A stretch of DNA of 64,000 bases from Herbiconiux sp. SALV-R1. GTDB taxonomy: Bacteria; Actinomycetota; Actinomycetes; Actinomycetales; Microbacteriaceae. The position numbers and the translations under genes are program-made. Positions 10,340 through 31,947 of the stretch are shown piece after piece. The stretch is taken from positions 62,001 through 126,000 of the forward strand of contig NZ_CP053344.1 of assembly GCF_013113715.1 (NCBI RefSeq), read 5' to 3'. The stretch's first letter is position 1. Each line of letters begins with the position of its first letter. The notes below the pieces were generated by a model. The model did not search any database. It had not been told where the DNA came from and saw only the letters and a list, made by a program, of their open reading frames with translations.

Positions 10340-10372
10340 GACGGGCCCAGCCGGGTAGCGGCCGGGCCCGTC
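10340..10372. terminator. Bidirectional hairpin between convergent genes
   Basis: Perfect 9-bp arms GACGGGCCC (10340-10348) and GGGCCCGTC (10364-10372) lie in the 57-bp gap between the acyl-CoA oxidase and ABC permease ends. No T tract follows on either strand. Confidence 0.5.
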
Positions 10373-10376
10373 GCGC

Positions 10377-12294: not shown

Positions 12295-12296
12295 GG

Positions 12297-12632: not shown

Positions 12633-12659
12633 CCGGCCTCCACTACTCACTGTCGTTGA

Positions 12660-12669
12660 CTACCGGTAG
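12660..12669. promoter_or_regulatory. Palindrome CTACCGGTAG, candidate PadR operator
   Basis: A perfect 10-bp palindrome lies 28 bp upstream of the padR ATG, directly after a TACTAT box read on the minus strand. Its placement over the promoter fits autorepression. Confidence 0.45.
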
Positions 12670-12704
12670 ATAGTAACACTGAATACCGGCTCGTCACCAG
12701 CCCC

Positions 12705-12722
12705 GTGGTACCCGGGTACCAC
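12705..12722. promoter_or_regulatory. 18-bp perfect palindrome in the padR/ABC divergent gap
   Basis: GTGGTACCCGGGTACCAC is self-complementary over all 18 bases. It lies between padR and the rightward ABC operon and could be the binding site of a dimeric regulator for either direction. Confidence 0.5.
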
Positions 12723-12851
12723 AGCTGTCGAGCACGGCCGGGGCGAAGACGGCACCGGCGTCGGATGGGCGGGAGGGCGCGCATCCGTAGCGTGATGGGT
12801 GGCGCAGCACGCGCCCGTCGCACACCACGCAAGGAGTACGGAGACGCACAG

Positions 12852-13778: not shown

Positions 13779-14617
13779 GCGCCGCCACGACCGCGGCGCC
13801 CACCCCGGCGCGCGCCTCGCACCAGCCGATCCCCGAACCCCGCCTACGCTTCGGCGGCGTGCTGAAGAGCGAGTGGATCAAGCTCACCACGCTCCGCTCG
13901 ACCATCTGGGCCTACGTCATCCTGGTGGTGCTGCAGGTCGCGATGGGAGTGCTCATCAGCTTCACCATGCCCGAGGCGACCGGAGTCGACGCGACCGGGG
14001 TCGCCGTGCAGAGCGGCGCCAGCGCCGCGGTGTTCGCGGCCACGCTCGGCGTGATGTTCAACCAGCTGGTGATCTCGGTGCTCGGCGTGCTGGTGATCAG
14101 CGGTGAGTACGGAACCGGGCAGATCCGCTCGAGCCTCACGGCGGTTCCCCGCCGCCTGCCCGTGCTCTGGGCCAAGGCGCTCGTGTTCGCCGTCACGAGC
14201 TTCGTGGTGGGGCTCGTCGCCATCGTCATCGCCTACGCCGTCACCGTGCCCCTGCTCGACGCCCGCGGCTACACCTCGTCGCTCCTCGACCCCGAGGTGT
14301 GGGCGCACCTGGTGGGTGCCGCCGGCTACCTGGCGCTCATCGGCCTCGTCGCGTTCTTCCTCGGCGCCGTGCTGCGGCACACCGCCGGCGGGATCGCCGC
14401 GGCAGTGGGGCTGCTGCTCGTGGTGCCGACCGTGCTCTCCTTCATCACCGCGGAGTGGGCGACCGTTCTCGGCCAGTGGCTGCCCGGTGTGGTGGGCCAG
14501 ACACTGTTCTTCGGCGGCAACGTCTTCGAGCCCTGGCAGGCCGTGCTGGTTATGCTCGGGTGGATCGCGGTCGTCGCCACGCCCGCAGCCATCCTGCTCT
14601 CCCGGAGGGACGCCTGA
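13775..14617 (+). CDS. ABC transporter permease (ABC-2 type)
   Basis: A 280-residue protein with six membrane segments and the start motif LKSEWIKLTTLRSTIW, which is typical of actinobacterial ABC permeases in this setting; GEYGTGQIRSSLTAVPRR is another family mark. It should pair with the ATPase just upstream (4-bp overlap). Its stop codon overlaps the likely CTG start of the histidine kinase. The exported substrate is unknown. Confidence 0.85.
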   Translation: MSAATTAAPTPARASHQPIPEPRLRFGGVLKSEWIKLTTLRSTIWAYVILVVLQVAMGVLISFTMPEATGVDATGVAVQSGASAAVFAATLGVMFNQLVISVLGVLVISGEYGTGQIRSSLTAVPRRLPVLWAKALVFAVTSFVVGLVAIVIAYAVTVPLLDARGYTSSLLDPEVWAHLVGAAGYLALIGLVAFFLGAVLRHTAGGIAAAVGLLLVVPTVLSFITAEWATVLGQWLPGVVGQTLFFGGNVFEPWQAVLVMLGWIAVVATPAAILLSRRDA

Positions 14618-15972
14618 CCATCCCCGCCTTCCCGTCCTCGGCATCGACGGCCCGACCCGTCGATGCCGAGGACCTCCAGCTGCCCAAGCCGCCGGGCTTC
14701 ATCCGCAGCTGGCTCGCCCGGCACCCGTGGCTGCTCGACGGCTTCATCGCCGGGGGCTACGCGGTGCCGATGGCCTCGGTCTCCTTCATCGCCTTCGTGG
14801 CCTCGCTGTTCGGTTCGCAGCCGTTCGGCGCCGACCTCCTGCGCTCGAGCCCGGCCTACTGGCTGCTGGTGTTCTACGTCACCTGCGCGGTGACGGTGGC
14901 GCTGCTGTTCCGCCGGCACGTGCCGGTCATCACCGCGTCGATCATCGCCGGGTCGCTGCTGGTCAGCACCATGAGCTCGCTGCAGCTCGACGGGGTGCCG
15001 ATGATGTTCGCGCTCTACGCCCTCGCGGTCTACCGCTCCTCCCGCTCGGCCTGGCTGTTCACGGCCATCGGCGCGGGGGCGGGCTGCCTCTCGCTGGTCA
15101 TCGCCAACCCCGCCGACCTCGCCGGCATCATCGGCTACACGGTGCTGTTCTCGCTGCTGCTCGTCATCTCCACCCTGGTGGGCATCACCTTCGGCAACCG
15201 CCGCCGCTACATCGTCGCCCTGCTCGACCGCGCCGAGCAGCTGGCCCGCGAGCGCGACCAGCGCGCGCAGCTCGCCGCCGCCGCCGAGCGCGCACGCATC
15301 GCCCGGGAGATGCACGACATCGTGGCGCACAGCCTCACCGTCATCGTCGCGTTGAGCGACGGAGCCGAGGCGAGCATCGACCGCTCCCCGGAGTCGGCCC
15401 GCGAGGCCGTGCGCCAGACCGGCATCACCGCCCGCCGCGCGCTCACCGACATGCGGCGCTCGCTCGGCGTGCTGACCGAGTCGACGGATGACGGCACCCC
15501 GACGACCTCGCCCGAGCGTGCCGTGGCAGCCCCGCTCACGCCCCAGCCCGGCGTCGCCGACCTCGCCGAGATGATCGAGTCCTACCGCGTCGCCGGCCTG
15601 CCCGTGCGCTACACGACCGCGGGCGAACCGCCCGCCGACCCGGTGCTGCAGCTCACCGTGTTCCGGGTCGTGCAGGAGGCGCTCACGAACGCGCTGCGCT
15701 ACGCCCTGCAGCCGGGCAAGGTCGACGTGGTGATCGGCTACCGCCCCGACGGCGTCGACGTCGAGATCGTCGACGACGGCGTCGACCCGGCCCGCGGCGC
15801 CCGCTCCACGGGTTCGGGCCGCGGGCTCATCGGCATGCGGGAGCGCGTCGCCCTCCACGGCGGCGCCGTCACCGCGGGGCCGGCGGGCTCCCGCGGCTGG
15901 CGCGTGCGCGCGCACCTCGGCGCCGGAGAGAGTTCAGCCACCGATCCCCGCCCAGAGGAGACCACCCCGTGA
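14614..15972 (+). CDS. NarL-type sensor histidine kinase (probable CTG start)
   Basis: A membrane sensor of about 452 residues with 4-5 hydrophobic segments, a HisKA_3 helix (REMHDIVAHSLTVIV, His near residue 234) and an ATPase domain ending GLIGMRERVALHGG. No ATG, GTG or TTG gives a sensible N-terminus: the conserved RHPWLLDGF segment must be included, and the nearest standard codon is a GTG at 14560, 58 bp inside the permease gene. CTG at 14614 overlaps the permease stop as CTGA and has GGAGG five bases upstream, so it is my best call. The partner regulator gene follows with a 4-bp overlap. Confidence 0.82.
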   Translation: MTIPAFPSSASTARPVDAEDLQLPKPPGFIRSWLARHPWLLDGFIAGGYAVPMASVSFIAFVASLFGSQPFGADLLRSSPAYWLLVFYVTCAVTVALLFRRHVPVITASIIAGSLLVSTMSSLQLDGVPMMFALYALAVYRSSRSAWLFTAIGAGAGCLSLVIANPADLAGIIGYTVLFSLLLVISTLVGITFGNRRRYIVALLDRAEQLARERDQRAQLAAAAERARIAREMHDIVAHSLTVIVALSDGAEASIDRSPESAREAVRQTGITARRALTDMRRSLGVLTESTDDGTPTTSPERAVAAPLTPQPGVADLAEMIESYRVAGLPVRYTTAGEPPADPVLQLTVFRVVQEALTNALRYALQPGKVDVVIGYRPDGVDVEIVDDGVDPARGARSTGSGRGLIGMRERVALHGGAVTAGPAGSRGWRVRAHLGAGESSATDPRPEETTP

Positions 15973-19360: not shown

Positions 19361-20425
19361 ATGACCACTGGCACGACCGAGCTCACCCCTCGCGACCACC
19401 CTGTTCTCGACGACTCGGTGAGGGTCGACGGCGGTGTGGTGCGCATCCTCGACCGCCGGGTGTTCCCCGAGCGGGTCGAGTGGGTCGAGGCCGCCGATGC
19501 GGAGCAGGTGGCGGCCGCCATCACCGCGATGGTCACCCAGAGCTCCGGCCCCCTGTTCGCCGCCTACGCCGGCCTCGAGCTCACGGCCCTGCAGGTGCGC
19601 GAGCTGCCCCTCGCGGCGGCGGCCGAGCGGATGCGCGTGGCCGGCACCGCGCTCGAGAACGCCCGCCCCACGAACAACCACCCGCGCGAGGCCGTCGAGC
19701 ACGTGCTCGCCGCCATCGCGCCGGCGACCACCACGCCGGCGCTCGTCGAGGCGGCCGTCGAGGCCGCGCGGGCGGGAGCGCGGTCGTACCGCGACCGCAG
19801 CCACCGGCTCGGCGTCGAGACGGTGGCGCTGCTCGGCGACGGTGCCCGCGTGCTCACCCACTGCTGGATGGACACCTACCTCATCGAACTCGTGCGCGCC
19901 GCCCGCGAGGCGGGCAAGCGGTTCGAGTGGGTCGCCACCGAGACCCGGCCCTACCTGCAGGGCGCCCGGCTCACCTCGCACACGCTCGCCGAGTTCGGCG
20001 AGCGGGTCACGCTCATCACCGACGGCATGGGCGCTGCGGCGCTCGCTCCGGGGTCGACCCTCGGCCGGGTCGACGCGCTCGTCACCGCCGCCGACCGGGT
20101 ATCGCTCGACGGCAGCGTGGTGAACAAGGTGGGCACACTGGGGCTCGCCGTCGCCGCGTCGGCCTTCGACGTGCCCTTCTACGCGCTCGTGCAGGCGCCC
20201 GACCTCGCGGCACCCACCGCCGACGACATCGCGGTGGAGGAGCGCGACCCCGCCGAGGTGCTCCACACGCTCGGGCGGCGCACCGCCTCGACGCTCGTCA
20301 CGGAGGCCTGGTACCCGGCCTTCGACGTCACGCCGGCGCGCTTCGTCACGCGCATCGTCACCGACCGCGGGGCGTTCGAGCCCGCCACCGTGGGCGAGTC
20401 GTACTACGGGGCCGCGGCACGATGA
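19361..20425 (+). CDS. mtnA: MtnA-like S-methyl-5-thioribose-1-phosphate isomerase, divergent
   Basis: A 354-residue protein of the MtnA/eIF2B-alpha fold. Family motifs present: LTHCWMD (catalytic Cys), ETRPYLQGARLTSHTL, LITDGMGAA (catalytic Asp) and VVNKVGTLGLA. The early MtnA motif RGAPAIG is replaced by QSSGPLF, and the segment after RPT (NNHPREAVEHVL) also departs from the usual form. It should convert an aldose-1-phosphate to the ketose-1-phosphate in methionine salvage or the related 5-deoxyribose route. It heads the operon mtnA-mtnK-mtnC-mtnB, all with 4-bp overlaps. A TATCCT box lies at 19328-19333. The substrate could differ from that of classic MtnA. Confidence 0.75.
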   Translation: MTTGTTELTPRDHPVLDDSVRVDGGVVRILDRRVFPERVEWVEAADAEQVAAAITAMVTQSSGPLFAAYAGLELTALQVRELPLAAAAERMRVAGTALENARPTNNHPREAVEHVLAAIAPATTTPALVEAAVEAARAGARSYRDRSHRLGVETVALLGDGARVLTHCWMDTYLIELVRAAREAGKRFEWVATETRPYLQGARLTSHTLAEFGERVTLITDGMGAAALAPGSTLGRVDALVTAADRVSLDGSVVNKVGTLGLAVAASAFDVPFYALVQAPDLAAPTADDIAVEERDPAEVLHTLGRRTASTLVTEAWYPAFDVTPARFVTRIVTDRGAFEPATVGESYYGAAAR

Positions 20426-21711
20426 GCGACGCCCCGGCACAGAGTCCGCTGAGCCCCTACGAGTTGCTGGTCACCGCCGACGACGTGGTGCGGTACCTCG
20501 ACGGGCGAGGGCTTCTCGGGCTGCTCGCCGAGACCGGCTCCGAGGTCGCCGTGCGCGAGGTGACCGCGGGCAACATGAACCGCGTCTTCATCGCCGCAGG
20601 TCCCCGGGGCTCACTCGCGGTGAAGCAGGCTCCGCCGTGGGTGCAGGTGGTGGGTCCGGAGTGGCCGATCGACCCGTCGCGCATCGTGCGGGAGGCGCGC
20701 ACCTACGAGCAGCTGGCCGGCAGCGTTCCCGACTCCATCCCGACGATCGTGAGCTTCGACCCGGAGCGCTACGTGCTGGTGATGGAAGACCTGTCCGACC
20801 TCGTGGTGCTGCGCGACGCGCTCGTCGCCGAGGTCGGGGGCGAGGATGCGGGGGTCGACTACTCCGCACTCGGCCGGGTGGTGGGGCGCTTCGTCGGCGA
20901 ACTGGCCGCGGGCACCTCGGTCGCAGCCCTCGGGCAGCAGGCGCACGGCGAGCTGGTCGAGAGCTCGGCGAACCCCGAGCTCTGCGCGCTCACCCTCGAC
21001 GTCGTGCTCGACGAGCCCTATCGGGAGCACGAGCACAATCACTGGCACCCGGTGCTCGACGAGCGGGTGCGGGGGCTCTATCGAGACGAGGCGGTGCACG
21101 CGGCGGTGGCGCGCATCCGTGCCGCGTTCGAGCAGCGCGAGGAGGCACTGCTGCACGGTGACCTGCACAGCGGGTCGGTGATGGTGGGGCGTCGCGACGG
21201 CGCGCAGCTGGTGAAGGTGTTCGACCCCGAGTTCAGCTTCGTCGGGCCGATCGGCATGGACCTCGGGCTGTTCTGGGCGAACCTCGAGATCGCGGCGCTC
21301 GCGGCCGAGGCCGTCGGCGACCACGAGCTCGCAGCAGCGCGCTACTCGGCCATCGCCGCCTCGCTCGACGCCTTCGCGGCGGCCTGGGGCGACGACGAGT
21401 CGCTCGCGGCGATCGTGAGCGACAGCTGGTCGTTCGCCGGGGTCGAGGGCATGCGCCGCGCCGCCGGGTTCTCCCACGCCGCCGACATCGAGTCGCTTCC
21501 CGAGCCCGCCCGTGCCGCCGCATCGTCGCGACTGTTCGACGTGGCGCGGGAGCACATCCTCTCGGGGGCCGAGGTGGCGCATCCGTTCGCCGCCGCGGCC
21601 GACTCAGCCGCAGCATCCGGGGCTGCGGTCGCACCCGACTCAGCCACCGCATCCGGGGCCGCCGTGCCCGACTCACCCACCGCATCCGACGCATCGAAGG
21701 AACGACCGTGA
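20422..21711 (+). CDS. mtnK: MtnK-like methylthioribose kinase with repeat-rich tail
   Basis: A 429-residue sugar kinase of the APH/choline-kinase fold. The nucleotide and catalytic motifs are VTAGNMNRVFIAA, VKQAP, VMEDLSD, the Brenner loop LLHGDLHSGSVMV and FDPEFSFVGPIGMDLG, all in MtnK form. It should phosphorylate methylthioribose on C1, producing the substrate of the isomerase encoded just upstream (ATGA overlap). The C-terminal 45 residues form an Ala/Ser/Asp-rich tail built from three repeats and are absent from normal MtnK, so likely unstructured. A second, separate mtnK-like gene lies at 26052-27350. Confidence 0.82.
   Translation: MSDAPAQSPLSPYELLVTADDVVRYLDGRGLLGLLAETGSEVAVREVTAGNMNRVFIAAGPRGSLAVKQAPPWVQVVGPEWPIDPSRIVREARTYEQLAGSVPDSIPTIVSFDPERYVLVMEDLSDLVVLRDALVAEVGGEDAGVDYSALGRVVGRFVGELAAGTSVAALGQQAHGELVESSANPELCALTLDVVLDEPYREHEHNHWHPVLDERVRGLYRDEAVHAAVARIRAAFEQREEALLHGDLHSGSVMVGRRDGAQLVKVFDPEFSFVGPIGMDLGLFWANLEIAALAAEAVGDHELAAARYSAIAASLDAFAAAWGDDESLAAIVSDSWSFAGVEGMRRAAGFSHAADIESLPEPARAAASSRLFDVAREHILSGAEVAHPFAAAADSAAASGAAVAPDSATASGAAVPDSPTASDASKERP
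21601..21690 (+). repeat. Three in-frame repeats in the mtnK 3' end
   Basis: Units begin at 21601 (36 bp), 21637 (33 bp) and 21670 (21 bp, truncated). They encode variants of Asp-Ser-Ala-Thr-Ala-Ser-Gly-Ala-Ala-Val-Pro and each carries the word GCATCC. Confidence 0.8.
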
Positions 21712-22442
21712 CCGACACCGCCTCCGCCCCCCTCACCGTCACCGCGCGCTACCTCGTGGTCGACCTGGAGGGCACGACGAGCGCCGCCGGGTTCATCCTC
21801 GGCGACCTCTACGACTACGCCCGCCCCCGCCTCGCGGCCTGGCTCGACGAACACGCGGGCGACCCGGTGATCGCCGAGGCCCGACAGCAGGTCATCCACG
21901 ACGCATCGCTGCCCACCGACGCGTCGACCGACGAGGTCGTCGCCGTGATGCACGAGTGGATGGAGCGCGACGTCAAGGCCACCCCCCTCAAGACCGTGCA
22001 GGGCCAGATCTGGGCCGAGGGCTTCGCGCGCGACGAGATCTCGTCGCACTTCTTCGACGACGTCATCCCGAGGCTGCGCACCTGGCACGCCCAGGGCGTG
22101 GGGCTCGCCGTGTTCTCGTCGGGCTCGGTCGCCTCGCAGGTGCCGTGGTTCAGGCACTCGCCCGACGGCGACCTCACCTCGCTCATCACCGACTACTTCG
22201 ACACCGTGAAGGCGGGCCCGAAGAAGGTCGCGGAATCGTACGAGAAGATCGCGGCGGCGCTCGGCGTTCCCGCCGCCGAGCTGGTGTTCTTCACCGACAA
22301 CCCGGGCGAGGTGTCGGCGGCGCTCGAGGCGGGCTGGCAGGTCGTGGCGTTCTCGCGCGCCGGCGAGCCGTTCTTCGAGGCCGACTTCGGCGGGGCGACC
22401 GTGGTGTCGTCGTTCGACGACGTCGAGGTGGTGGCGCCGTGA
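21708..22442 (+). CDS. mtnC: Acireductone synthase (enolase-phosphatase E1)
   Basis: A 244-residue HAD-family enzyme. The motif VVDLEGTTSAAGFI is the diagnostic E1 form of HAD motif I, FSSGSVASQ is motif II, and KAGPKKVAESY with FFTDNPGEVSAA supply motifs III and IV. It turns 2,3-diketo-5-methylthiopentyl-1-phosphate into acireductone in two steps. GTG start at 21708 overlaps the kinase stop (GTGA), with AAGGA upstream; the following gene also starts within its stop. The full E1 fusion replaces the separate MtnW and MtnX enzymes of Bacillus. Confidence 0.9.
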   Translation: MTDTASAPLTVTARYLVVDLEGTTSAAGFILGDLYDYARPRLAAWLDEHAGDPVIAEARQQVIHDASLPTDASTDEVVAVMHEWMERDVKATPLKTVQGQIWAEGFARDEISSHFFDDVIPRLRTWHAQGVGLAVFSSGSVASQVPWFRHSPDGDLTSLITDYFDTVKAGPKKVAESYEKIAAALGVPAAELVFFTDNPGEVSAALEAGWQVVAFSRAGEPFFEADFGGATVVSSFDDVEVVAP

Positions 22443-23212
22443 GCGCTGGTTCTGTGGGCGCTGCGGGTTCGCCGGCCGCTGCGGGCGGTCCCTCCTCGCC
22501 CGAGCTGCTGCACGGCGACGGCATCGCCCGGTACGCGTTCGGCGACGGCACGGTGACGGATGCGTCGCTCACCGCAGCGGGCGAGGCGCTCGCCGCCGAG
22601 TCGGCCCGGTTCGCCGGCCTCGGCTGGATGCCCGGCACGGCCGGCAACCTCTCCGTGACGCTCGCGCGGTCGCCCCTGCGGCTCGCGGTGACGGCGTCCG
22701 GCCGCGACAAGGGCGAGCTCCGCACGCAGGACATCGTGCTGGTCGACGAGCAGGGCGAGTGGGTGCCCGATGCCGAGTCGGGCTCCGGCGACGTGACCGC
22801 GCGCCTCGGACTCGCGTCGAAGCCCTCCGCCGAGGCAGGGCTGCACGCCCGCATCGCCGCCGTGACGGGTGCGGGGGCGGTCATCCACGTGCACGCGCTC
22901 GCCGCCGTGCGCGCGGGAGCCGCCTGGCCCGGCGGCGTCCAGCTGCGCGATCTCGAGATGCTGAAGGGCATTGGGCACTCGGCGCACGACGAACTCGTGA
23001 CCATTCCGGTCGTGCAGAACCACCAAGACATGCGGGTGCTCGGCGACGACTTCGAGCGCGTCTACGTGCGGGCGACCGCCGAGGTGCGCGAGGTTCCGGC
23101 GCTGGTGGTGGCGAGCCACGGCATCTACGCCTGGGGCTCCGACCTCCGCCACGCCCGCTGGCACCTCGAGCTCACCGAGGCCCTCCTCCAGATCGCCCTC
23201 GCCACGCGCTGA
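22439..23212 (+). CDS. mtnB: Methylthioribulose-1-phosphate dehydratase (class II aldolase family)
   Basis: A 257-residue enzyme. Motifs fit MtnB: GTAGNLSV, TASGRDKGEL, PSAEAGLHARI, the metal-binding VIHVHALAAV, LEMLKGIGH and IPVVQNHQDM. It dehydrates methylthioribulose-1-phosphate to the diketo intermediate used by MtnC. The first 35 residues are Gly/Ala/Ser-rich and probably disordered. GTG start overlaps the mtnC stop. Last gene of the operon; a hairpin follows. Confidence 0.87.
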   Translation: MSAGSVGAAGSPAAAGGPSSPELLHGDGIARYAFGDGTVTDASLTAAGEALAAESARFAGLGWMPGTAGNLSVTLARSPLRLAVTASGRDKGELRTQDIVLVDEQGEWVPDAESGSGDVTARLGLASKPSAEAGLHARIAAVTGAGAVIHVHALAAVRAGAAWPGGVQLRDLEMLKGIGHSAHDELVTIPVVQNHQDMRVLGDDFERVYVRATAEVREVPALVVASHGIYAWGSDLRHARWHLELTEALLQIALATR

Positions 23213-23215
23213 TGC

Positions 23216-23249
23216 GCCGTCGCGAGCTGCGCGCTGGCTGAGCGACGGC
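23216..23249. terminator. Hairpin between mtnB and the convergent cell wall-binding gene
   Basis: Arms GCCGTCGC (23216-23223) and GCGACGGC (23242-23249) with an 18-base loop fill the 39-bp convergent gap. No T run is seen. Confidence 0.4.
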
Positions 23250-23251
23250 CG

Positions 23252-24778
23252 TCAGCGGCAGAGGTACTTGAGCTTGGCGACGTCGTCGTTCAGGGTGTTG
23301 GGGCCGCCCAGCAGGTAGATGTCGATCGGCTCGAGCGCCGAGGCGCTCCGCCACATCGACTCGGGCAGGCAGCCCTTCTGCACCAGGTACAGCGGTGCGT
23401 CGTTGCTCGCCGCCACCGGCCCGCCCGAGAGCGCATCGGCGAAGACCTCGCCCGAGGCGACGTAGATCTTCTCGTAGCTGCCCTCGAAGACCGCCGTGTT
23501 CATCCGTGCCGCCACGTCGTAGCGGTTCGCGCCGCCGAAACGCTCGACCCTGCCGGGCAGCAGCTGCCCGAGCCACCACTCGATCGACCCGCTCACCGAC
23601 GCGCCACCACCCGCGATGGCGGCGTTCAGGGTGCCCAGGCGGCTGAGCAGCTCGCGCGTCGGCATGTCGAGGTCGGATGCGGTGCCCGGCACCAGAAGCA
23701 CCGCACCATCGCGGTGGGCCGCCGCCGGCCCCGCGGCGAGGGCATCGGGGAAGTTCGCGCCCGTGGCGACGAAGACGTTCGTCGCACCGCCGTCGCAGGG
23801 GGTGGCGTCGCGGGGCGCATCCGGAAGCAGTCCGCAGAAGGCGTAGTCGATGACCGCACGCGACGACTCGTAGCGACCGGCGCCCGCGACGCGCAGCGTG
23901 TCGGGCTGCACGGCGGCGAGCTCGGCGAGCACGGAGTCGCTGATGGTGTTGGCGCCGCCCACCACGACGATCTTCTGCGGCTGCAGCTCGGCGAGCGCGG
24001 CGCGGGTGGAGTCGGGGATGCTGTCGCGCAGGGTGAGCAGCAGGCCGCCGCCCTGGTGCGCGGCGGCGGGACCGGCGCTCAGGGCGTCGGGGTAGCTCTC
24101 GCCGCTCGCGACATAGAGCACGGGCACCGGAGCGGAGTCACCGAAGGCGTTCAGCGCCAGGTTGGCGGCGACGGCGTAGCGGTCGGAGCCGCCGAAGCGG
24201 GTGATCCAGTAGAGCTTCGGGTCGAGGTAGGCGGTGTCGAGTTCCGTCGTCTGTCCGTCGACCACGGTGACGAGCGTGGCTTCGTCGCGGTAGATCGCGT
24301 TGTCGTAGTACACGTCGCGCACGGTTGCACCCACGGGCGCCGTGAAGTGAACGAGGTAGTCGCCCGGGGGCAGGAGCTGGCTGGTGAACGACGACGCCAG
24401 CCCAGGGCCGTCCGACGTCGCCGTCGAGACCAGGGTGAACGTTCCGGTGTCGGGGTCGCGGAGGGAGAACTCGACCGTCACGCCCCGCGCCGGGGTGGTG
24501 TCGCCGGCGTCGGGGTCGCGATAGGCGACGGCGCCCTTCACGAAGCCCCCGGTCACCACATCGATGTCGAACGGGACGGGCGCCGGCGCCTCCGACTGCG
24601 CATCGGTGTCGAGCGGCGGCAGATCGCCCGGGCCAGGAACGGGCGTCGCCGACGGCGACGGGTCGGACTCGGCCAGGGCCGATGAGGCGGGCGAAGCCGC
24701 CTGCGCCGGCGCGGCGAGCGCCCCGACGAGGGCGAGTGCGGTCAGTGCCGCCCCCACGGTGATTCTGATCGAACGCAT
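23252..24778 (-). CDS. Secreted protein with three cell wall-binding repeats (CWB2)
   Basis: A 508-residue exported protein: signal peptide ending in APAQA, a Ser/Pro linker, a Cna-like beta domain (about residues 75-180, DPDAGDTTPARGVTVEF), then three CWB2 repeats marked by RFGGSDRYAVAANLA, the middle copy beginning RVAGAGRYESSRAV, and RFGGANRYDVAARMN, each with the A(S/T)GxxFxDALxxGPxA type core. CWB2 triplets anchor proteins to secondary wall polymers. No enzyme domain is present, so it may be a structural or adhesive surface protein. ATG at 24778 follows GGGGGAAG; an upstream ATG at 24796 is less likely. Confidence 0.85.
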   Translation of the reverse strand: MRSIRITVGAALTALALVGALAAPAQAASPASSALAESDPSPSATPVPGPGDLPPLDTDAQSEAPAPVPFDIDVVTGGFVKGAVAYRDPDAGDTTPARGVTVEFSLRDPDTGTFTLVSTATSDGPGLASSFTSQLLPPGDYLVHFTAPVGATVRDVYYDNAIYRDEATLVTVVDGQTTELDTAYLDPKLYWITRFGGSDRYAVAANLALNAFGDSAPVPVLYVASGESYPDALSAGPAAAHQGGGLLLTLRDSIPDSTRAALAELQPQKIVVVGGANTISDSVLAELAAVQPDTLRVAGAGRYESSRAVIDYAFCGLLPDAPRDATPCDGGATNVFVATGANFPDALAAGPAAAHRDGAVLLVPGTASDLDMPTRELLSRLGTLNAAIAGGGASVSGSIEWWLGQLLPGRVERFGGANRYDVAARMNTAVFEGSYEKIYVASGEVFADALSGGPVAASNDAPLYLVQKGCLPESMWRSASALEPIDIYLLGGPNTLNDDVAKLKYLCR

Positions 24779-24893
24779 GTCTTCCCCCAGACTCATCGAG
24801 CGGCCCGTCTCGACGGGTGTCGCTCAGACTGCGATCCTAAGTCACGCGGGGCGCATCCTGAACTCCCGGATACCGGGAGCACGTACAGCCCGC

Positions 24894-25817
24894 TCAGAGC
24901 TGCAGGGCGAAGGCCTCCTCGAACACGGTGACGGTGAAGTCGCGATCGACCGGCATCGCCCGACCGTCGAGCTCGCGCACGGGCGCGATCAGCCTGCCGC
25001 TCGAGAGCAGCCAGAGCCCGTCGGCGGCCGCGAGCCGGTCGGGTTCGATGAGGGCCTCGGCGGTCTCGAAGCCGAGGCGGCCGAGCGCGTCGAAAACGGC
25101 GGCCTGCGTGGTTCCGGCGAGGATGCCGAGGTCGGTGCGCGGCGTGAGGAAGGTGTCGCCCTCGCGCACGACGACCGTCGACGTGGGGCCCTCGAGCACG
25201 ATGCCGTCGCTCGAGACGAAGATGACATCGTCGGCACCGCGGCGGCCCGCCTCACGGAGGGCGGCCTTGTTCACGGCGTACGACAGGGTCTTCGCGCCCT
25301 GCAGCAGCCACGGGGCGGTCTGCGCGATGTCGTGCCGGTAGCCGCGGTCGAGGGTGACCACGCGGATGCCGTCGCGACGGCTCGACCCGTGGTCGGGGCC
25401 GGTGAGCACCTGCACCCAGCCGCTCGCCGCATCCGCACCCTCGATGCCGCGGCTGTAGAGCAGTTTCACGAGCAGCTCGGGCGCCGGCGTGTGGGCGGCG
25501 ACGCCGGCGCGGGCGGCGGCCTCGAAGGCGGCGAGGTCGGGTGCCGGCAGATCGAGCATCGCCGCCGAGTGCGCGAGCCGCGCCAGGTGCCGCTCGAGCT
25601 CGATGAACCGCCCGTCGAGCACGCCGATCGACTCGAACACCCCGTCGCCCCGCGTCACCGCCAGATCGTCGACCCGGATGCGTGCCTCGGCCTGCGAGAG
25701 CACGGTCGGCGCGGCGGGGGCGGGCGGGGTGCCGTGCGCGGTGGCCGGGGCGGCCGCCCGTTCGAGCACGATCACCAGGTCGTCGCCGTCGCTGCCGGGG
25801 GTGGAACTGGCGGGCAT
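24894..25817 (-). CDS. Aminotransferase class IV (possible KMTB transaminase or ADC lyase-like)
   Basis: A 307-residue PLP enzyme. Class IV marks are RGDGVFESIGVLDGR, GAKTLSYAVNKAALREA with the likely PLP lysine, GADDVIFVSSDG and LEGPTSTVVV in place of the usual SN motif, and GTTQAAVFDAL. The family includes branched-chain aminotransferases, D-amino acid transaminases and aminodeoxychorismate lyase. Branched-chain class IV enzymes can convert ketomethylthiobutyrate to methionine, and its place between the two mtn gene groups makes that role attractive, but it is inference. GAGAGG lies about seven bases before the ATG. Confidence 0.75.
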   Translation of the reverse strand: MPASSTPGSDGDDLVIVLERAAAPATAHGTPPAPAAPTVLSQAEARIRVDDLAVTRGDGVFESIGVLDGRFIELERHLARLAHSAAMLDLPAPDLAAFEAAARAGVAAHTPAPELLVKLLYSRGIEGADAASGWVQVLTGPDHGSSRRDGIRVVTLDRGYRHDIAQTAPWLLQGAKTLSYAVNKAALREAGRRGADDVIFVSSDGIVLEGPTSTVVVREGDTFLTPRTDLGILAGTTQAAVFDALGRLGFETAEALIEPDRLAAADGLWLLSSGRLIAPVRELDGRAMPVDRDFTVTVFEEAFALQL

Positions 25818-25945
25818 GGAAGTCCTCTCGGTGCGGGCGCGGGCTCGTCGCCACCACCAGTCTCGCGCATTCGGCTGGGGGTGCCGGTGTGGCGCTGCCG
25901 CGTCGCTCGTGCCGCTGAGCGCGCGGCGGAGACTGAACGGAGGCC

Positions 25946-26098
25946 GGCGAGGGACTCGGCGGGCTGGCGCGGGCCGCGGGCCCTCAGCCGGCGGCGGCCA
26001 GCGCTTGGAGAGCGGCGAGGGGCTCGGCGGGCCTGCGCGGGCCACGCGCCCTCAGCCCGCAGCAGCCACCGAGCGGAGGGCGGCGAGGGACTCGGCGG
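25946..26098. repeat. 68-bp tandem duplication carrying the 3' end of the second mtnK gene
   Basis: Copies start at 25946, 26014 and 26082 (the last partial and inside the gene), exactly 68 bp apart. The stop codon of the kinase is at 26052-26054 in the middle copy. Read on the minus strand the outer copy still spells a decayed version of the C-terminus (PLAALQALAAAG followed by TGA), so the end of the gene and its stop were duplicated into the spacer. The rest of the 234-bp gap has no other feature I can support. Confidence 0.8.
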
Positions 26099-27350
26099 CG
26101 AGCGCGTCGACCGAGTCGATGCCGTGGCGGGTGAGGGCGAGGTTGCGGGCGGCGTGCAGCACTCCGCGGGCGGCGAGCTCGCGGGCGGCGGGCGCGAGGG
26201 TCTCGATGTCGCTGGCCTTAGCGAAGCCGACGATGCGGCGGATGGCCTTGGCCGCCGCGAACACGGCGGCGTCGTCGCGGATCGAGGCGAGCAGCTGCTC
26301 CAGCACCTCGTCGCCCCACACCCGCGGGTCGAGGCGGGTGGGCCACAGCGCGCGGTACTCCGCCTCGAAGGCCGCCCAGAGCCGCCCGGGAAGGCTCATC
26401 ACGAGCTCGGCCCGCTCGCGCTCGCCCAGCGCCGTCGCCCGCGCCGCCGCCAGGATGAAGTTCGCCCACAACGCCCCGAGGTCGAACCCCGTCGGTCCGA
26501 CGAACCCGAACTCGCTGTCGAACGCCCGCACCGACCGCCCGCTCCCGCGAGCATCCGCACCGTCGCCACCCCGCGCATCCGCACCGCCGTCGTCGCCGCG
26601 CGAGCCGTGCGCGCCGCCCGGCGCGGCCGCGTCCCGTACGAACACCGACCCCGTGTGCAGGTCGCCGTGGATGAGCGACTGCGCCGTCGTCATGAACCGC
26701 AGCTTCGCCAGCCCCATCTCGCGCACGAGCGCCCGGTCGGCCCGCAGCGCCGCCACGTCGGGCTCGTTGCCCGGCAGCACGGCGTTGTGTTCGTGCTCGA
26801 TGTAGGGCTCGGTGAACACGAGGTCTTCGGTGATCTGCGCGAGCTCGGGGTTGATCGCCCGCGCCGCGAGCCGCTTGTGCTCGAGCGGATCGAGCCCGAG
26901 CGGCGACGTCGCGAACGCCGTGCGCGCCACGTAGCGTCCGAGTTCGTCGGCCGCGTAGGCGTGCACGCGCCCCTCGTTGAGCTCGTTGCGCCACACCTGA
27001 TGGTCGGAGAGGTTCTCGATCGCCAGCACGTAGTGCTCGGCGTCGAAGTCGTAGAACGCCGGCACGTGCTCGGGGTCGGCCTCGACGTGGGCGCCGAGCA
27101 CGGTGGCCTCGCGCGCCGAGCGCTCCCGCGTCATGGCCCACGACGGGTCGGTGCGCACGTGCGGCAGCGACTGCTTCAGCACCACCGAGGCCCCGTCGAC
27201 GTCGGTGACGATGAACACCAGGTTGAGGTTGCCGTCGCCCACCTCGCGCACCGAGTCGAGGCGCGACGCGTCGAGGCGCCCGGCCAGCGCGGGCCGCGAC
27301 CCGAGGTAGGCGGCGACGGTGTCGATCGTGAGCTGGGTGAAGTCGGTCAT
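26052..27350 (-). CDS. mtnK: Second MtnK-like kinase, in the ABC importer operon
   Basis: A 432-residue kinase of the same fold as the 20422 gene but clearly different in sequence. Motifs: VGDGNLNLVFIV, VVLKQSLPHV, LAIENLSDH, SLIHGDLHTGSVFV and FDSEFGFVGPTGFDLGALW. Between the last two lies a Gly/Asp/Arg-rich insertion of about 35 residues. It is 98 bp downstream of the ABC permease on the same strand, so the imported sugar is probably its substrate; methylthioribose is the natural guess. GGAG is five to six bases before the ATG. The 3' end is tandemly duplicated. Confidence 0.82.
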   Translation of the reverse strand: MTDFTQLTIDTVAAYLGSRPALAGRLDASRLDSVREVGDGNLNLVFIVTDVDGASVVLKQSLPHVRTDPSWAMTRERSAREATVLGAHVEADPEHVPAFYDFDAEHYVLAIENLSDHQVWRNELNEGRVHAYAADELGRYVARTAFATSPLGLDPLEHKRLAARAINPELAQITEDLVFTEPYIEHEHNAVLPGNEPDVAALRADRALVREMGLAKLRFMTTAQSLIHGDLHTGSVFVRDAAAPGGAHGSRGDDGGADARGGDGADARGSGRSVRAFDSEFGFVGPTGFDLGALWANFILAAARATALGERERAELVMSLPGRLWAAFEAEYRALWPTRLDPRVWGDEVLEQLLASIRDDAAVFAAAKAIRRIVGFAKASDIETLAPAARELAARGVLHAARNLALTRHGIDSVDALAAESLAALRSVAAAG

Positions 27351-27366
27351 CGGGGCTCCAGGGTCG

Positions 27367-27427
27367 GGCGACGGATGCGGTGGGCCGGCCCGGCGACGGA
27401 TGCGCGGGCCGGTACGGCGACGGATGC
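27367..27427. repeat. Three 12-bp repeats upstream of the second mtnK gene
   Basis: GGCGACGGATGC occurs at 27367, 27392 and 27416 (periods 25 and 24 bp) in the 98-bp gap between the permease stop and the kinase start. The flanks are also similar (GGGCCGG), so this is a short tandem array of about 24 bp units. Confidence 0.75.
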
Positions 27428-27448
27428 TCGGACCCGTCGCAGCACAGG

Positions 27449-28498
27449 CTACGACGTCGAGGTGGTCGACCCCGCCGTGACGACGGTGCGGCGGCGCGAG
27501 AAGGTGAAGCTGAACAGCAGGGCGATGAGCAGCACGATGCCCTTGCCGAAGTCCTGCATGTAGTAGGGGAGCCCGAGCATGGTGAAGCCGTTCACCATCA
27601 CCGCGATGAGCACGGCGCCGAGCGCGGTGCCCCAGGCGTTGGGCCGCCCGATGCCGAGCACCGACACCCCCACGAGCGCCACGGCGACGGCGTCGAGCAG
27701 CAGCGAGTTGCCGGCGCTCACGTCGCCCTGGCCGATGCGGGCGGCGAGCAGGAGGCCGGCGATCGAGGCGAGCAGACCGCATCCCATGTAGGCGGCGGTG
27801 CGGTACCACTGCACGCGGATGCCCGCGAGCCTCGCCGCCTCGGCGTTCGCCCCCACGGCGAACAGCGCCCGCCCCCAGCGCGTGCGCTCGAGCAGGAACC
27901 ACAGCAGCACCGTGAGCAGGAGGAACAGCAGCACCGGCACCGGCACCGGCCCGATCGCCCCGCGGTCGAGCCAGAGGAAGTCGGCGGTGAACTTGCCGGG
28001 CGCGGTGGTGCCGTTCGACAGGGTCATCTGCGACGAGATCGACTTGCCGTCGACGATGATGAGCTTGAGGCCGACGATGACGAACATCGTGGTGAGGGTG
28101 GCCAGCAGGTCGGGGATGCGCGCCACCACGATGAGGAAGGCGTTCAGCGCCCCGATGAGCAGCCCGCACACCAGCACCACCGAGACGGCGACGCCGCCGA
28201 CCTGGTTGCCGACGACCATGGTCCAGGCGGCGATCGAGACGGCGAAGCCCGCCGAGGCGCCCACCGAGAGGTCGATGCCGCCGACCGTCATCGCGAGCAT
28301 CACCCCGAGGCCCGCGATCGCCGTCGGCGCGATGAACTTGAGCATGCCGAAGACGTTGTCGACGGTGCGGAAGTTGGGCTCCGTGGCGAGGAAGTAGACC
28401 AGGAGCGCCACCGTCACGGCGACGAAGCCCCACTTCACGATGAAAGCGGAGGTGCGTTCGGCGGCGGAACGGGTGGTGAGGGCGCCGGGGCTAGACAT
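27449..28498 (-). CDS. Ribose-type sugar ABC transporter permease
   Basis: A 349-residue membrane protein with 8-10 segments of the RbsC/BPD_transp_2 family; the motifs GGIDLSVGASAG and RWGRALFAVGANAEAARLAGI are diagnostic. It overlaps the end of the ATPase gene by 8 bp. It forms the channel of a pentose-type importer with the ATPase and lipoprotein upstream. The mtnK-like kinase lies downstream and mtnD is divergent, pointing to methylthioribose or another 5-modified pentose as substrate. Confidence 0.87.
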   Translation of the reverse strand: MSSPGALTTRSAAERTSAFIVKWGFVAVTVALLVYFLATEPNFRTVDNVFGMLKFIAPTAIAGLGVMLAMTVGGIDLSVGASAGFAVSIAAWTMVVGNQVGGVAVSVVLVCGLLIGALNAFLIVVARIPDLLATLTTMFVIVGLKLIIVDGKSISSQMTLSNGTTAPGKFTADFLWLDRGAIGPVPVPVLLFLLLTVLLWFLLERTRWGRALFAVGANAEAARLAGIRVQWYRTAAYMGCGLLASIAGLLLAARIGQGDVSAGNSLLLDAVAVALVGVSVLGIGRPNAWGTALGAVLIAVMVNGFTMLGLPYYMQDFGKGIVLLIALLFSFTFSRRRTVVTAGSTTSTS

Positions 28499-30116
28499 GC
28501 GGCTGCCTTTCGGGATGGCTGTCGGGGTTTTCGTGTCGGGTGGGATGGGCGTCGTGCGCGGCGCCGGAGGCGCGGGCGGTGCCGAGGAAGGCGCCGATGA
28601 CCTCGGAGCGGTCGACCTCGTCGGCGTAGCGGTCGAGCGCGATCTCGCCCGCCACCAGCACCACGATGCGGTCGGCCACCTCGAAGATCTCGTCGACGTC
28701 GCTCGAGAGCACGACGGCGGCGGCGCCCGCCGCGGCGAGGGCTCCCAGCCGGGCGCCGATCTCGCGGCGGGCGGCGATGTCGACACCGCGGAAGGGCTCG
28801 TCGAGCAGGGCGAGCCGCGGTCGCGCCGAGAGCCAGCGCCCCACCACCACCTTCTGCTGGTTGCCGCCCGACAGGTCGTCGATCGAGGCGTCGGGCCCGC
28901 TCGTCACGACACCGAGCTCGTCGATGACGCCCGCGGCGCGCTCGCGCTCCCGCCGACGGCTCACGAGGCCCAGCACGCTCGAGGCGCGCAGGAACGGCAG
29001 CGTCACGTTCTGCTCGAGCGACCATCCCGACAGGATCCCCTGCCGCTGACGGTCTTCGGGCACCAGCACGACTCCGGCGGCGATGGCGTCGCCCGGGCGG
29101 CGCGGCGCGTAAGCCGACCCGCCGAGCTGCAGCGACCCCGACAGCGGGGTGGCGAGCCCGCCGAGCAGTTCGGCGATCTCGGTCTTGCCCGCGCCGATCA
29201 GCCCGAGCACCCCGAGCACCTCACCCGCTTTGATGTCGAGGTCGACGGGCGCCGACTCGGGGATCAGCGTCACCCGATCGAGTCGGGCGACGACCTCCGC
29301 ACCGCGGCTCGTCGCCCCGCGGTCGTGATCGAGCTCGGTGGCGCGGCCGAGCATGTCGTGGAGGATGTCGTGCCAGGCGAACGGCCGCGCCGAGTCGCTC
29401 TGCACCTTCCCGTCGCGCAGCACCACGACGCGATCGGCGAGCGCCTCGATCTCGCCGAAGCGGTGGGAGACGTACACGATCGAGAGGCCCGTCGCCCGCA
29501 GCGCCCTGAGCACCTCGAACAGCCGCTCGGCCTCGGCCGCGGTGAGCGCCGAGGTGGGTTCGTCGAGGATGAGCAGCCGGGGCGTTCCGCGCAAGGCGCG
29601 GGCAAGCACGAGCAGCTGCGCATCGGAGATGGCGAGCCGCGCCGCGTCGTGGTTCAGGATGCTGTCCGACCAGTCGAGCCCGAGGGTCGCCAGGGCGGCC
29701 CTCGCATCGGCGAGCGCGCTGCGCGAGGTGCGGAACGGATGACGCGACGCACGGGCCAGATCGTCGAGGGTGAGGTTCTCGGCCACCGAGAGCCCGGGAA
29801 CGATGCCGTCGGCGACCTTCTGGTGCACGGCCGAGATGCCGAGCTGCCGCGCCTGCACGGGCGAGGAGAGGTGCACGGCCTCGCCGGCGACGCTGATCTG
29901 ACCGGTGTAACGCGAGTTGGCGCCCGAGATCGCCTTGATGAGCGTCGACTTGCCCGCCCCGTTCGCGCCGAGCAGCGCCGTGATCTCGCCCGGCGCGAAT
30001 TCGAGGTCGACGTCGCTCAGCACCAGGTTCGAGCCGTAGGCCACAGACACGCCGACGAGGGACACGACGCCGTCGGCGCCGTGTCCCTCGATCGGTGCGG
30101 GAGACGGGTTCGTCAT
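28491..30116 (-). CDS. Ribose-type sugar ABC transporter ATP-binding protein (tandem ATPase)
   Basis: A 541-residue double ATPase of the RbsA type. Domain 1 has Walker A LLGANGAGKSTL, DAQLLVLARAL in the degenerate signature region and Walker B LLILDEPTSAL; domain 2 has GLIGAGKTE, signature LSGGNQQKVVV and LALLDEPFRGVD. The first signature is degenerate and the second is intact, as usual for this family. The ATG at 30116 overlaps the binding protein stop (ATGA). The C-terminal 25 residues are His/Pro-rich and probably disordered. Confidence 0.9.
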   Translation of the reverse strand: MTNPSPAPIEGHGADGVVSLVGVSVAYGSNLVLSDVDLEFAPGEITALLGANGAGKSTLIKAISGANSRYTGQISVAGEAVHLSSPVQARQLGISAVHQKVADGIVPGLSVAENLTLDDLARASRHPFRTSRSALADARAALATLGLDWSDSILNHDAARLAISDAQLLVLARALRGTPRLLILDEPTSALTAAEAERLFEVLRALRATGLSIVYVSHRFGEIEALADRVVVLRDGKVQSDSARPFAWHDILHDMLGRATELDHDRGATSRGAEVVARLDRVTLIPESAPVDLDIKAGEVLGVLGLIGAGKTEIAELLGGLATPLSGSLQLGGSAYAPRRPGDAIAAGVVLVPEDRQRQGILSGWSLEQNVTLPFLRASSVLGLVSRRRERERAAGVIDELGVVTSGPDASIDDLSGGNQQKVVVGRWLSARPRLALLDEPFRGVDIAARREIGARLGALAAAGAAAVVLSSDVDEIFEVADRIVVLVAGEIALDRYADEVDRSEVIGAFLGTARASGAAHDAHPTRHENPDSHPERQPHV

Positions 30117-31210
30117 TCGGAGACTGCAGGCAGCCAATCGGTGACGAGGGTGTCGGAGAGCTCGAGCGACGGCTCCGCCGCACGCAGCTCGATGACGTTC
30201 GTGACCGAGTTGTCGGCGAGGAACTGCTGCGTGATGGTCTTGGCCGGGAACTGCACGTCGGTCTCGTCGAGCTCGCCGGCGAGGCTCAGCGCCAGGGCGC
30301 GCACGACGCCGGCGCCCACGGCGGCGGGGTCGGTGGCCGAGGTGGCGACCCAGGGGCTGCCGTCGGCGGTCATGACCTCGATGTCGGCGTTCGAGATGTC
30401 GATGCCGTAGACCTTCACCTTGTCTTGCAGGTTGTTCTGGATGACGGCCTGCACCGTGCCCTTGGTGATCTCGTCGTAGGGGGCGAAGATGGCCTGCACG
30501 TCGGGGTTCTGCTTCAGCGCGGCGTCGACGAGCGGGATGTTGTCGGTCGCGGTCGACTCGCTCACCTTGCCGGTCGAGAACACGACGTCGAGGTCGTTGT
30601 CGGCGACGTAGTCGTTCCACACCGCCGCACGACGGTCGAGCGCGGCGAAGCCCTCGGCCGAGACGTAGCCGACCTTCGCGCCCTTGCCGACGTCGGCGAT
30701 GAGCTGGTCGAGCACGCCGGAGGCCATCGACTCGTCGGACTGGCTCGAGGTGATGACACCCTCGGAGTCGGTGAGGGCGAGGTCGTAGACGATGATCGGG
30801 ATGCCCGCCTCGACGGCCTCGGTGACGAGCGGCTGCAGGGTGTCGGTCTGCCCGTGGTCGACGATGATGGCGTCGGGCTTCGAGGCGATGGCCTGCTCGA
30901 GGTCGCTGGCGTGCTTCGCGTTGTCGTTGCGCGCATCCGTCACCTGGAGGTCGATGTTGGCGAACTTCGCCTGAGCCTGGGCGCCGGCACCCCAGGCCTC
31001 GAAGTAGTCGCCGGCGCCGCTCTGGCGCACCAGCGAGACCTTCAGCGGCTCGCCGTCGAAGGGGGCGGGGAGGGCGGCGGAGGCGGTGGGGGCGGCGGCG
31101 GCGGTGCTGCCCGACTCGGTGCTGCTGCTCGACTGCGAGCAGGCGCTGAGACCGAGCACGCTCGCGGCGACGAGCGCGGTGAGAACGACGCCTTTTCGGG
31201 TGATGGCCAT
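30113..31210 (-). CDS. Sugar ABC transporter substrate-binding lipoprotein (RbsB-like)
   Basis: A 365-residue lipoprotein (lipobox LGLSACS) with a periplasmic-binding fold of the RbsB type: KVSLVRQSGAGDYFEAWGAG, DAIIVDHGQTDTLQPLV, VGYVSAEGFAALDRRAAVW and VQAIFAPYDEITKG. Sequence differs from ordinary ribose binders in the ligand loops, fitting a modified sugar. It is the first gene of the leftward operon SBP - ATPase - permease - mtnK. GGAG is six bases before the ATG. An inverted repeat at 31233-31271 lies in its leader or promoter. Confidence 0.87.
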   Translation of the reverse strand: MAITRKGVVLTALVAASVLGLSACSQSSSSTESGSTAAAAPTASAALPAPFDGEPLKVSLVRQSGAGDYFEAWGAGAQAQAKFANIDLQVTDARNDNAKHASDLEQAIASKPDAIIVDHGQTDTLQPLVTEAVEAGIPIIVYDLALTDSEGVITSSQSDESMASGVLDQLIADVGKGAKVGYVSAEGFAALDRRAAVWNDYVADNDLDVVFSTGKVSESTATDNIPLVDAALKQNPDVQAIFAPYDEITKGTVQAVIQNNLQDKVKVYGIDISNADIEVMTADGSPWVATSATDPAAVGAGVVRALALSLAGELDETDVQFPAKTITQQFLADNSVTNVIELRAAEPSLELSDTLVTDWLPAVSE

Positions 31211-31232
31211 GGGAGGCTCCTTGTGATTCGGG

Positions 31233-31271
31233 ATCTGAGTGCGTGGGGCAGAGCTGTGACTGCACTCAGAT
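31233..31271. promoter_or_regulatory. 10-bp inverted repeat upstream of the importer operon
   Basis: ATCTGAGTGC (31233-31242) and GCACTCAGAT (31262-31271) are perfect complements with 19 bases between. It starts 22 bp upstream of the binding protein ATG in the divergent gap with mtnD. It could fold as a leader hairpin or act as two half-sites for a regulator of the salvage genes. Confidence 0.6.
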
Positions 31272-31359
31272 TCAAGCCGCTCTGCGTGGCGGGGAACGAA
31301 TCGTGTTTCCCTCTGTTACTTTCCGGGGCTCTCGGAGGGGCTGTGGAGAAGTGGAGGTC

Positions 31360-31365
31360 TAGCAT
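31360..31365 (+). promoter_or_regulatory. -10 box TAGCAT of mtnD, leaderless type
   Basis: TAGCAT ends six bases before the mtnD ATG at 31372. The GGAGG in the gap is only one base from the ATG, too close for normal use, so a leaderless message is likely. Confidence 0.5.
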
Positions 31366-31371
31366 GGAGGC

Positions 31372-31947
31372 ATGACCCTGCTGACCGTGTGGAACGACAA
31401 CGACCCCTCGACTCCCGTGCTCCAGACCCGCGATTTCGACACGATCCGCGAGGTGCTCGCCGGGCTGAACGCACGGTTCAGCCGCTGGGAGCTCAAGGAA
31501 CTCACGCCCGAGGCCACGCAGGAGGAGGTGCTCGCGAAGTACCGCGACGAGATCGACGCGGTGAACGCCGAGCACGGCTATACGCTCGTCGACGTCGTCA
31601 CGCTCACCCGCGCCGACACAGACGAGTACCGTGAGCAGGCCGAGGTCGCGCGCAGCAAGTTCCTCAACGAGCACCGTCACGACGACGACGAAGACCGCTT
31701 CTTCGCCCGCGGCTCCGGCGTGTTCTACCTGCACGCCGACGGCAAGGTGCACGCCGTGTTCTGCGAGGCCGGCGACCTGCTCTCCGTGCCGAAAGACACC
31801 ACCCACTGGTTCGACATGGGCACCACACCCGACTACGTCTCGGTGCGCTTCTTCCACGACGACGACGGCTGGGTCGGCCACTTCACCGGCAGCGACGTCG
31901 CCGCGCAGTTCGCCACCTACGACGAACTCGCCTCCGTCTCGGCCTGA
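31372..31947 (+). CDS. mtnD: Acireductone dioxygenase
   Basis: A 191-residue cupin enzyme. The metal site HRHDDDE (His-x-His-x3-Glu) and the later His in PKDTTHWFDMG are the family ligands, and RFFARGSGVFYLH is the typical strand between them. It cleaves acireductone to the keto-acid precursor of methionine and formate (iron form) or to an off-pathway product (nickel form). It is divergent from the ABC importer operon across 161 bp, and about 8 kb from mtnABC, which strengthens the case for one salvage regulon. Confidence 0.92.
   Translation: MTLLTVWNDNDPSTPVLQTRDFDTIREVLAGLNARFSRWELKELTPEATQEEVLAKYRDEIDAVNAEHGYTLVDVVTLTRADTDEYREQAEVARSKFLNEHRHDDDEDRFFARGSGVFYLHADGKVHAVFCEAGDLLSVPKDTTHWFDMGTTPDYVSVRFFHDDDGWVGHFTGSDVAAQFATYDELASVSA

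Follow-up and report, generated by a model that had tools for sequence, protein, structure and literature searches.

A Putative 5-Methylthioribose Importer Joined to Methionine Salvage Genes in Herbiconiux sp. SALV-R1 and Related Actinobacteria

Gene Content of the Locus

The stretch of DNA analyzed here (the window) comprises 64,000 nucleotides of contig NZ_CP053344.1 of Herbiconiux sp. SALV-R1, whose genome measures 4.52 Mb in 2 contigs. Between positions 19361 and 31947 the window carries genes of methionine salvage together with those of an ATP-binding cassette (ABC) importer, through which, we propose, the cell scavenges 5-methylthioribose (MTR) from its surroundings. The features of the locus are as follows.

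19361-20425, + strand: mtnA, MtnA-like isomerase (NF004326, 241 bits, cut-off 271; TIGR00512, 191 bits, cut-off 279; PF01008, 157 bits)
20422-21711, + strand: mtnK1, MTR kinase of the salvage operon (TIGR01767, 274.8 bits, just under the cut-off of 275; 2OLC methylthioribose kinase, 153 bits)
21708-22442, + strand: mtnC, acireductone synthase or enolase-phosphatase E1 (TIGR01691, 190 bits, cut-off 128)
22439-23212, + strand: mtnB, methylthioribulose-1-phosphate dehydratase (TIGR03328, 154 bits, cut-off 137)
Between the salvage operon and the importer run: gene for a cell-wall-binding-repeat protein, named from its own sequence
24894-25817, - strand, also between operon and importer run: PabC-like aminodeoxychorismate lyase, a neighbour outside the pathway (NF005886, 258.8 bits, cut-off 253)
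26052-27350, - strand: mtnK2, MTR kinase 98 bp behind the permease gene (TIGR01767, 337.5 bits, cut-off 275; 2OLC, 170 bits)
27449-28498, - strand: importer permease, BPD_transp_2 (PF02653, 130 bits; RbsC-like, under the cut-offs of all 11 matched models)
28491-30116, - strand: importer ATPase with two ABC domains (PF00005 twice; AraG/YtfR/XylG/RbsA-like, under cut-off)
30113-31210, - strand: importer substrate-binding lipoprotein, hereafter SBP (PF13407, 116 bits; best solved relative 4ry8)
31297-31319, - strand: conserved 23-base box GTAACAGAGGGAAACACGATTCG, between mtnD and the SBP gene, from an alignment of 21 intergenic regions
31372-31947, + strand: mtnD, acireductone dioxygenase (Pfam ARD PF03079, 93 bits; no NCBIfam match at E 0.001)

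The mtnA-mtnK1-mtnC-mtnB operon (19361-23212, + strand) is tightly packed, adjacent genes overlapping by 4 bp; a simple gene caller, from which the permease start was taken, places the start of mtnB slightly later, at 22454. The importer run extends from 31210 to 26052 on the - strand in the order SBP, ATPase, permease, and mtnK2, with the first three genes overlapping. The two units are convergent, and mtnD is divergent from the SBP gene. The overlaps within the operon, the 98 bp gap before the second kinase gene, and the divergent mtnD, all given in a preliminary description of this DNA, were confirmed. All three components of a CUT2 importer are present (a double ATPase, a BPD_transp_2 permease, and a Peripla_BP_4 lipoprotein), and so are the genes for the five enzymes that lead from MTR to the oxo acid (MtnK, MtnA, MtnB, MtnC, and MtnD). 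MtnA and MtnD were identified by their best or only match, MtnA scoring below the NCBIfam cut-offs and MtnD having no curated NCBIfam match. The mtnA product was the sole PF01008 match in the whole genome, and the ribose-1,5-bisphosphate isomerase model gave it only 144 of 314 bits.

Substrate of the Importer

The SBP is 94% identical to a protein of Herbiconiux moechotypicola. Its best match in the PDB was 4ry8 (203 bits), followed by Yersinia 5ulb (114 bits), with ribose-type binding proteins at 59 bits or less. The 4ry8 entry is titled "5-methylthioribose transporter solute binding protein TLET_1677." Using a predicted model of the SBP (pLDDT 81.6), Foldseek returned 4ry8 chains at ranks 1 to 3, the first with an E value of 5e-27 and 37% identity. 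Thirteen pocket positions, ribose-contacting sites in RbsB or adjoining ones, were compared. The SBP carried the same letter as 4ry8 at 10 of the 13. Five of its letters matched the ribose-binding protein 2ioy, and the eight positions at which these two differ are N13, F15, N64, R90, F164, N190, F214, and Q235. The window protein and Tlet_1677 of Thermotoga lettingae are thus alike in fold, in a full-length match, and in most pocket letters; the SBP differs in having Trp for Tyr (N190), Phe for Tyr (F15), and Val for Ile (F214). All 13 letters were identical across the 15 proteins of the clade to which the SBP belongs. The 4RY8 match, the pocket letters, and the co-occurrence reported below indicate that the importer very probably carries methylthioribose, and at the level of sequence they support the preliminary description, which proposed methylthioribose or a related 5-modified pentose.

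MTR importers of the ABC type are already known, and the importer in the window would be a further example. ABC transporters for MTR are predicted under the name MtrACB in Enterobacteria and Bacillus cereus (PMC3228920) and as mtnXYZ in Proteobacteria (PMC4239095), and for B. subtilis a different permease, MtrA/YfnA, is described (PMC5743806). As in the window, the MtrACB/mtnXYZ kind is a CUT2-type importer located near mtnK and mtnA (Klebsiella L053). It differs in that its SBP is 31% identical to that of the window, differs at 8 of 13 pocket positions in Klebsiella and Yersinia (5ULB), and falls on a separate branch. Among the matching papers listed in the literature search, none mentioned 4ry8, and no paper was found that covers both Microbacteriaceae and methionine salvage. 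A review of alpha-glucans (PMC11046441) was the one listed paper in which MTR and Thermotoga both appear.

Co-occurrence of the Importer and mtn Genes

The distribution of the importer was surveyed in 219 genomes of Microbacteriaceae. Importer orthologues were called at an SBP E value of 3e-67 or better and at least 40% identity (23 genomes; the remaining matches had E 9e-21 or weaker), and MTR kinases at E < 1e-50 (24 genomes; G029, with a kinase match of E 2e-11, was left out). An MTR kinase was found in 22 of the 23 importer genomes and in 2 of the 196 others (Fisher p = 7e-27, relatedness ignored). Counted by genus, the values were 12 of 13 and 2 of 72 (p = 9e-12, relatedness beyond genus ignored). 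The association between importer and kinase is not due to chance. G009 and G099 were the only genomes with a kinase and no importer, and G099 holds a permease gene and a partial ATPase gene at a contig end. The kinase gene starts within 4 kb behind the SBP gene in 20 of the 22 importer-kinase genomes, the exceptions being G026 and G122. MtnD was found in 14 genomes and MtnC in 13, all within the importer set. The co-occurrence of importer, mtnK, and mtnD, named as a check in the preliminary description, was observed for the kinase (22 of 23 importer genomes) and for MtnD (importer in 14 of 14 MtnD genomes).

A set of named loci from the species collection, overlapping with the family genomes, gave a similar picture. 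Twenty-two of 23 loci were kept (at least 70% identity) and L079 (22% identity) was dropped. The 22 loci belong to Herbiconiux, Agreia, Cryobacterium, Microbacterium, Jiangella, Trujillonella, and Blastococcus, and every one of them shows at least one mtn gene: mtnD is present in 21 (not in Jiangella L075), and mtnB and mtnC are present in 19 (not in L059, L065, and L074).

Source of MTR

The preliminary description noted that the window encodes no nucleosidase or phosphorylase for 5'-methylthioadenosine (MTA), and this observation can be extended to the whole genome. No match to the MTA nucleosidase model TIGR01704 was found in the genome, and the MTA phosphorylase (MTAP) model reached 77 of 275 bits genome-wide, only on a purine nucleoside phosphorylase, which is the sole PNP_UDP_1 protein encoded. 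SpeD was likewise not found in the genome; other MTA sources were not searched. Because neither an MTA-cleaving enzyme nor SpeD was found, the MTR feeding the locus is probably external.

Back Ends in Relatives

The importer-kinase unit was found joined to three back ends, namely MtnB-C-D, a RuBisCO-like protein with a cupin, and class II aldolases. MtnB-C-D is encoded at a distance from the importer in G047. For the second back end, mtnK, mtnA, and the gene for the RuBisCO-like protein come after the importer in G023, G072, G016, G135, and G097, with the cupin gene on the other strand. The RuBisCO-like protein matched 3qfw best in the PDB (226 bits) and the cupin matched Rru_A2000 (159 bits), the methylthioxylulose-5-phosphate sulfurylase of R. 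rubrum (PMC4958253), suggesting that the sugar processed by this second back end likewise carries a methylthio group. The RuBisCO-like protein of G173 was not counted here, since the locus matched at 29% and no cupin was matched. These loci share mtnA, the RuBisCO-like protein, and the cupin with the MTA-isoprenoid shunt of R. rubrum (PMC4958253, PMC5893883); unlike that shunt, five of six such loci also hold the importer and mtnK, and the window lacks this back end. The sixth, G159, shares its genus label with G016 and G097 and has mtnA, the RuBisCO-like protein, and the cupin, no importer or MTR kinase, and an MTAP-like protein (201 bits, curated cut-off 275). There are exceptions to this exchange of importer for MTA cleavage: an MTAP-like protein is encoded in G097 alongside importer and kinase, and an MTA nucleosidase match likewise accompanies them in G072 and G135.

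The third back end occurs in G003 and G083, where the unit is followed by genes for a class II aldolase and a bifunctional aldolase/short-chain dehydrogenase and mtnA lies in front; no mtnC, mtnD, or RuBisCO-like match was found in these two genomes. The dihydroxyacetone phosphate (DHAP) shunt of E. coli consists of mtnK, mtnA, ald2, and a putative permease (PMC12632272), and thus groups kinase, isomerase, aldolase, and transporter as G003 and G083 do. The two genomes differ from it in two ways: an ABC importer takes the place of the single permease, and the bifunctional protein is additional. It is an even call, in our estimate, whether importer, MTR kinase, and MtnA constitute a portable front end for outside MTR, joined to at least three back ends in Microbacteriaceae and some other Actinomycetota and serving in 16 of 22 genomes as a nutritional pathway for a leaked sugar.

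Three further arrangements were noted. L033 (G213, 4349-11686) is mixed, with an aldolase/short-chain dehydrogenase, a DeoR/LsrR-like regulator, part of a transketolase, and a RuBisCO-like protein around the importer. L036 (G083, 14145-15893) encodes a uridine-phosphorylase-like protein and an adenosine deaminase approximately 2 kb from mtnA. The lower-GC loci L033, L035, and L036 were read by tblastn and plain open reading frames. The genome of the window itself encodes a RuBisCO-family protein far from the mtn locus (G000:C1:3381602-3382414; PF00016, E 3e-70), which scores much higher on PF00016 than the shunt-type proteins of the relatives.

Interpretation and Alternative Readings

Judged from sequence, the locus is likely to be a scavenging system for extracellular MTR, to which we assign a probability of roughly 80%. 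The lipoprotein would bind MTR, possibly released by other organisms, and the importer would take it in. MtnK2, MtnK1, or both would phosphorylate it to MTR 1-phosphate, MtnA would isomerize this product, and MtnB, MtnC, and MtnD would yield 4-methylthio-2-oxobutanoate, as expected from their family membership. An aminotransferase encoded elsewhere would then produce methionine.

Several observations weigh against this proposal. The identity between the SBP and 4ry8 is only 37%, and the SBPs of Klebsiella and Yersinia (5ulb) match 4ry8 at just 5 of 13 pocket positions, even though the Klebsiella gene adjoins mtnK and mtnA; the pocket signature therefore marks the 4ry8 branch and not all predicted MTR importers. 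Importer homologues without mtn genes, which the preliminary description regarded as contrary evidence, did not turn up among relatives sharing at least 70% identity (0 of 13 genomes of the family and 0 of 22 named loci), all of which had mtn genes. They do occur at approximately 40% identity: G152 (40%) is the one importer genome lacking an MTR kinase, and three alphaproteobacterial plasmid loci showed no mtn gene by tblastn, their whole genomes not being searched. At this distance the family is an unsafe marker of MTR transport. These loci are placed among the more distant members of the SBP tree, yet L055 and L056 retain 9 and 8 of the 13 pocket letters of the window despite the lack of mtn genes; L042 (G152) and L054 retain 6. 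Absence of MTA cleavage is also common in the family. Both enzymes are missing from 148 of the 219 genomes, with MTAP-like proteins below the cut-off counted as present (E 1e-59 or better, 50 genomes, only G091 passing the curated cut-off). An MTA-cleaving enzyme was found in 6 of 22 importer genomes and 65 of 197 others (p = 0.64), so that absence is not enriched; neither enzyme was found in 16 and 132, respectively. For those 16 importer genomes the lack of MTA-cleaving enzymes points to MTR from outside, but it does not set importer genomes apart from the rest.

That an ordinary ribose importer of the RbsABC kind lies beside the mtn genes by chance is very improbable. Permease, ATPase, and SBP all resemble Rbs/Ara/Xyl-type sugar importers; however, no specific cut-off was reached (RbsB, 61 of 337 bits), the SBP departs from 2ioy at the 8 of 13 presumed ribose-contact positions named above, and an MTR kinase accompanies the importer in nearly every genus that has it. 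A plain ribose importer was rejected on the basis of the RbsB score and the pocket letters. A broader specificity deserves more weight, although we consider it doubtful for the window: the importer would admit both MTR and 5-deoxyribose, the kinases and MtnA would accept both, and only MtnB-C-D would be specific for methylthio compounds. E. coli MtnK and MtnA are reported to act on both sugars (PMC12632272). G003 and G083 have the DHAP-shunt-like layout, and their pocket letters match 4ry8 at 10 of 13 positions, as those of the window protein do. All 15 rows of the window clade, however, have mtnB and mtnC nearby, 14 of them (Jiangella L075 excepted) have mtnD as well, and the pocket letters shared by all 15 differ from those of the aldolase-linked SBPs at the R90 and F214 positions.

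The presence of two kinases raises the further alternative that K1 and K2, the products of mtnK1 and mtnK2, serve different substrates, one per module. They lie on opposite sides of one branch of the kinase tree (support 100/99; rooted for drawing only), with K2 representing the kind that the remaining importer loci of the tree contain, and both proteins of the window retain the HGDLH, DxEF, and RR motifs. In a simple expression search, 10 of the 42 kinase rows, most of them K1 and one a fragment (L033), gave no match to the RR pattern. Ten of the 22 importer-kinase genomes keep both kinases, and K1 was found only alongside MtnD (12 of 12 genomes); together with the tree, these counts favor a division of substrates. 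On the other side, 2 genomes have K1 only (G026 and G122) and 10 have K2 only, and in the whole-genome search G026, G122, and the K2-only G068 each hold the importer with mtnA, mtnB, mtnC, and mtnD. The single-kinase state is repeated at the locus level in Cryobacterium L071 (K1 only) and in Microbacterium L073 and L077 (K2 only). Since full sets exist with either kinase alone, K1 and K2 appear to be two separate lineages, either of which seems to suffice, and divided substrates are unlikely. The proposal of one kinase per module in the preliminary description, read as a division of substrates, was weakened by G026, G122, and G068. Naturally occurring K1-only and K2-only genomes make it possible to ask why other such loci keep two MTR kinases. 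As a separate observation, a single open frame of 695 codons spans mtnK1 and mtnC in G122 (L044, 14371-16458), a possible MtnK-MtnC fusion.

If the locus does scavenge extracellular MTR, this sugar would be a shared currency of sulfur and carbon; E. coli is reported to excrete MTR (PMC3228920). Actinobacteria, some of them named for leaf or endophyte origin, would have a dedicated uptake route for it, and apparent internal recycling would probably be scavenging from outside. The mtn genes alone do not show internal methionine recycling. The proposal also supplies a testable substrate for an importer that would probably be annotated merely as a sugar importer, because no specific curated model was reached. 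The part most worth following is the joining of three back ends to one front end.

Neighbouring Genes and a Candidate Control Element

The enzyme at 24894-25817 had been described as a class IV aminotransferase, with the remark that branched-chain transaminases of this class can close the cycle. The branched-chain reading was wrong: NF005886 was passed, and the best branched-chain transaminase model gave 70 of 363 bits, so that identity was rejected. A pabC relative adjoins the importer in eight of nine named Herbiconiux loci, the exception (L059) being a short contig, and it is absent from all six Agreia loci, from Cryobacterium L071, and from L050 of G155. The pabC-like gene is a neighbour with no part in the pathway. 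No aminotransferase for the last step was found at the locus, the local class IV enzyme being PabC; the rest of the genome was not searched.

The box GTAACAGAGGGAAACACGATTCG stands out in Herbiconiux, and Agreia and Cryobacterium have sequences that resemble it more loosely. It has a single site in the genome at up to 3 mismatches, the reversed control giving 0, and may serve as an operator or promoter element; no neighbouring gene was recognised as a regulator. Control of the locus by an S-adenosylmethionine (SAM) riboswitch was rejected, as no such element was matched upstream at the Rfam gathering cut-offs. The window yielded only three tRNAs in that search, whose genes lie in a row near its end (62465-62825, - strand).

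Some distant relatives of the importer have other neighbours. At L042 (G152, 9206-15923) the neighbours of an importer relative (39-49% identity) encode a UPF0261 protein, a PEP_hydrolase-like protein, and a short-chain dehydrogenase, a combination that may represent a catabolic locus not yet characterised. The plasmid-borne SBP relatives of Rhizobium (L055, 5902-9536) and Methylobacterium (L056, 4598-6945) adjoin genes of the acyl-CoA dehydrogenase family, and L055 also carries an SfnB sulfur-acquisition gene.

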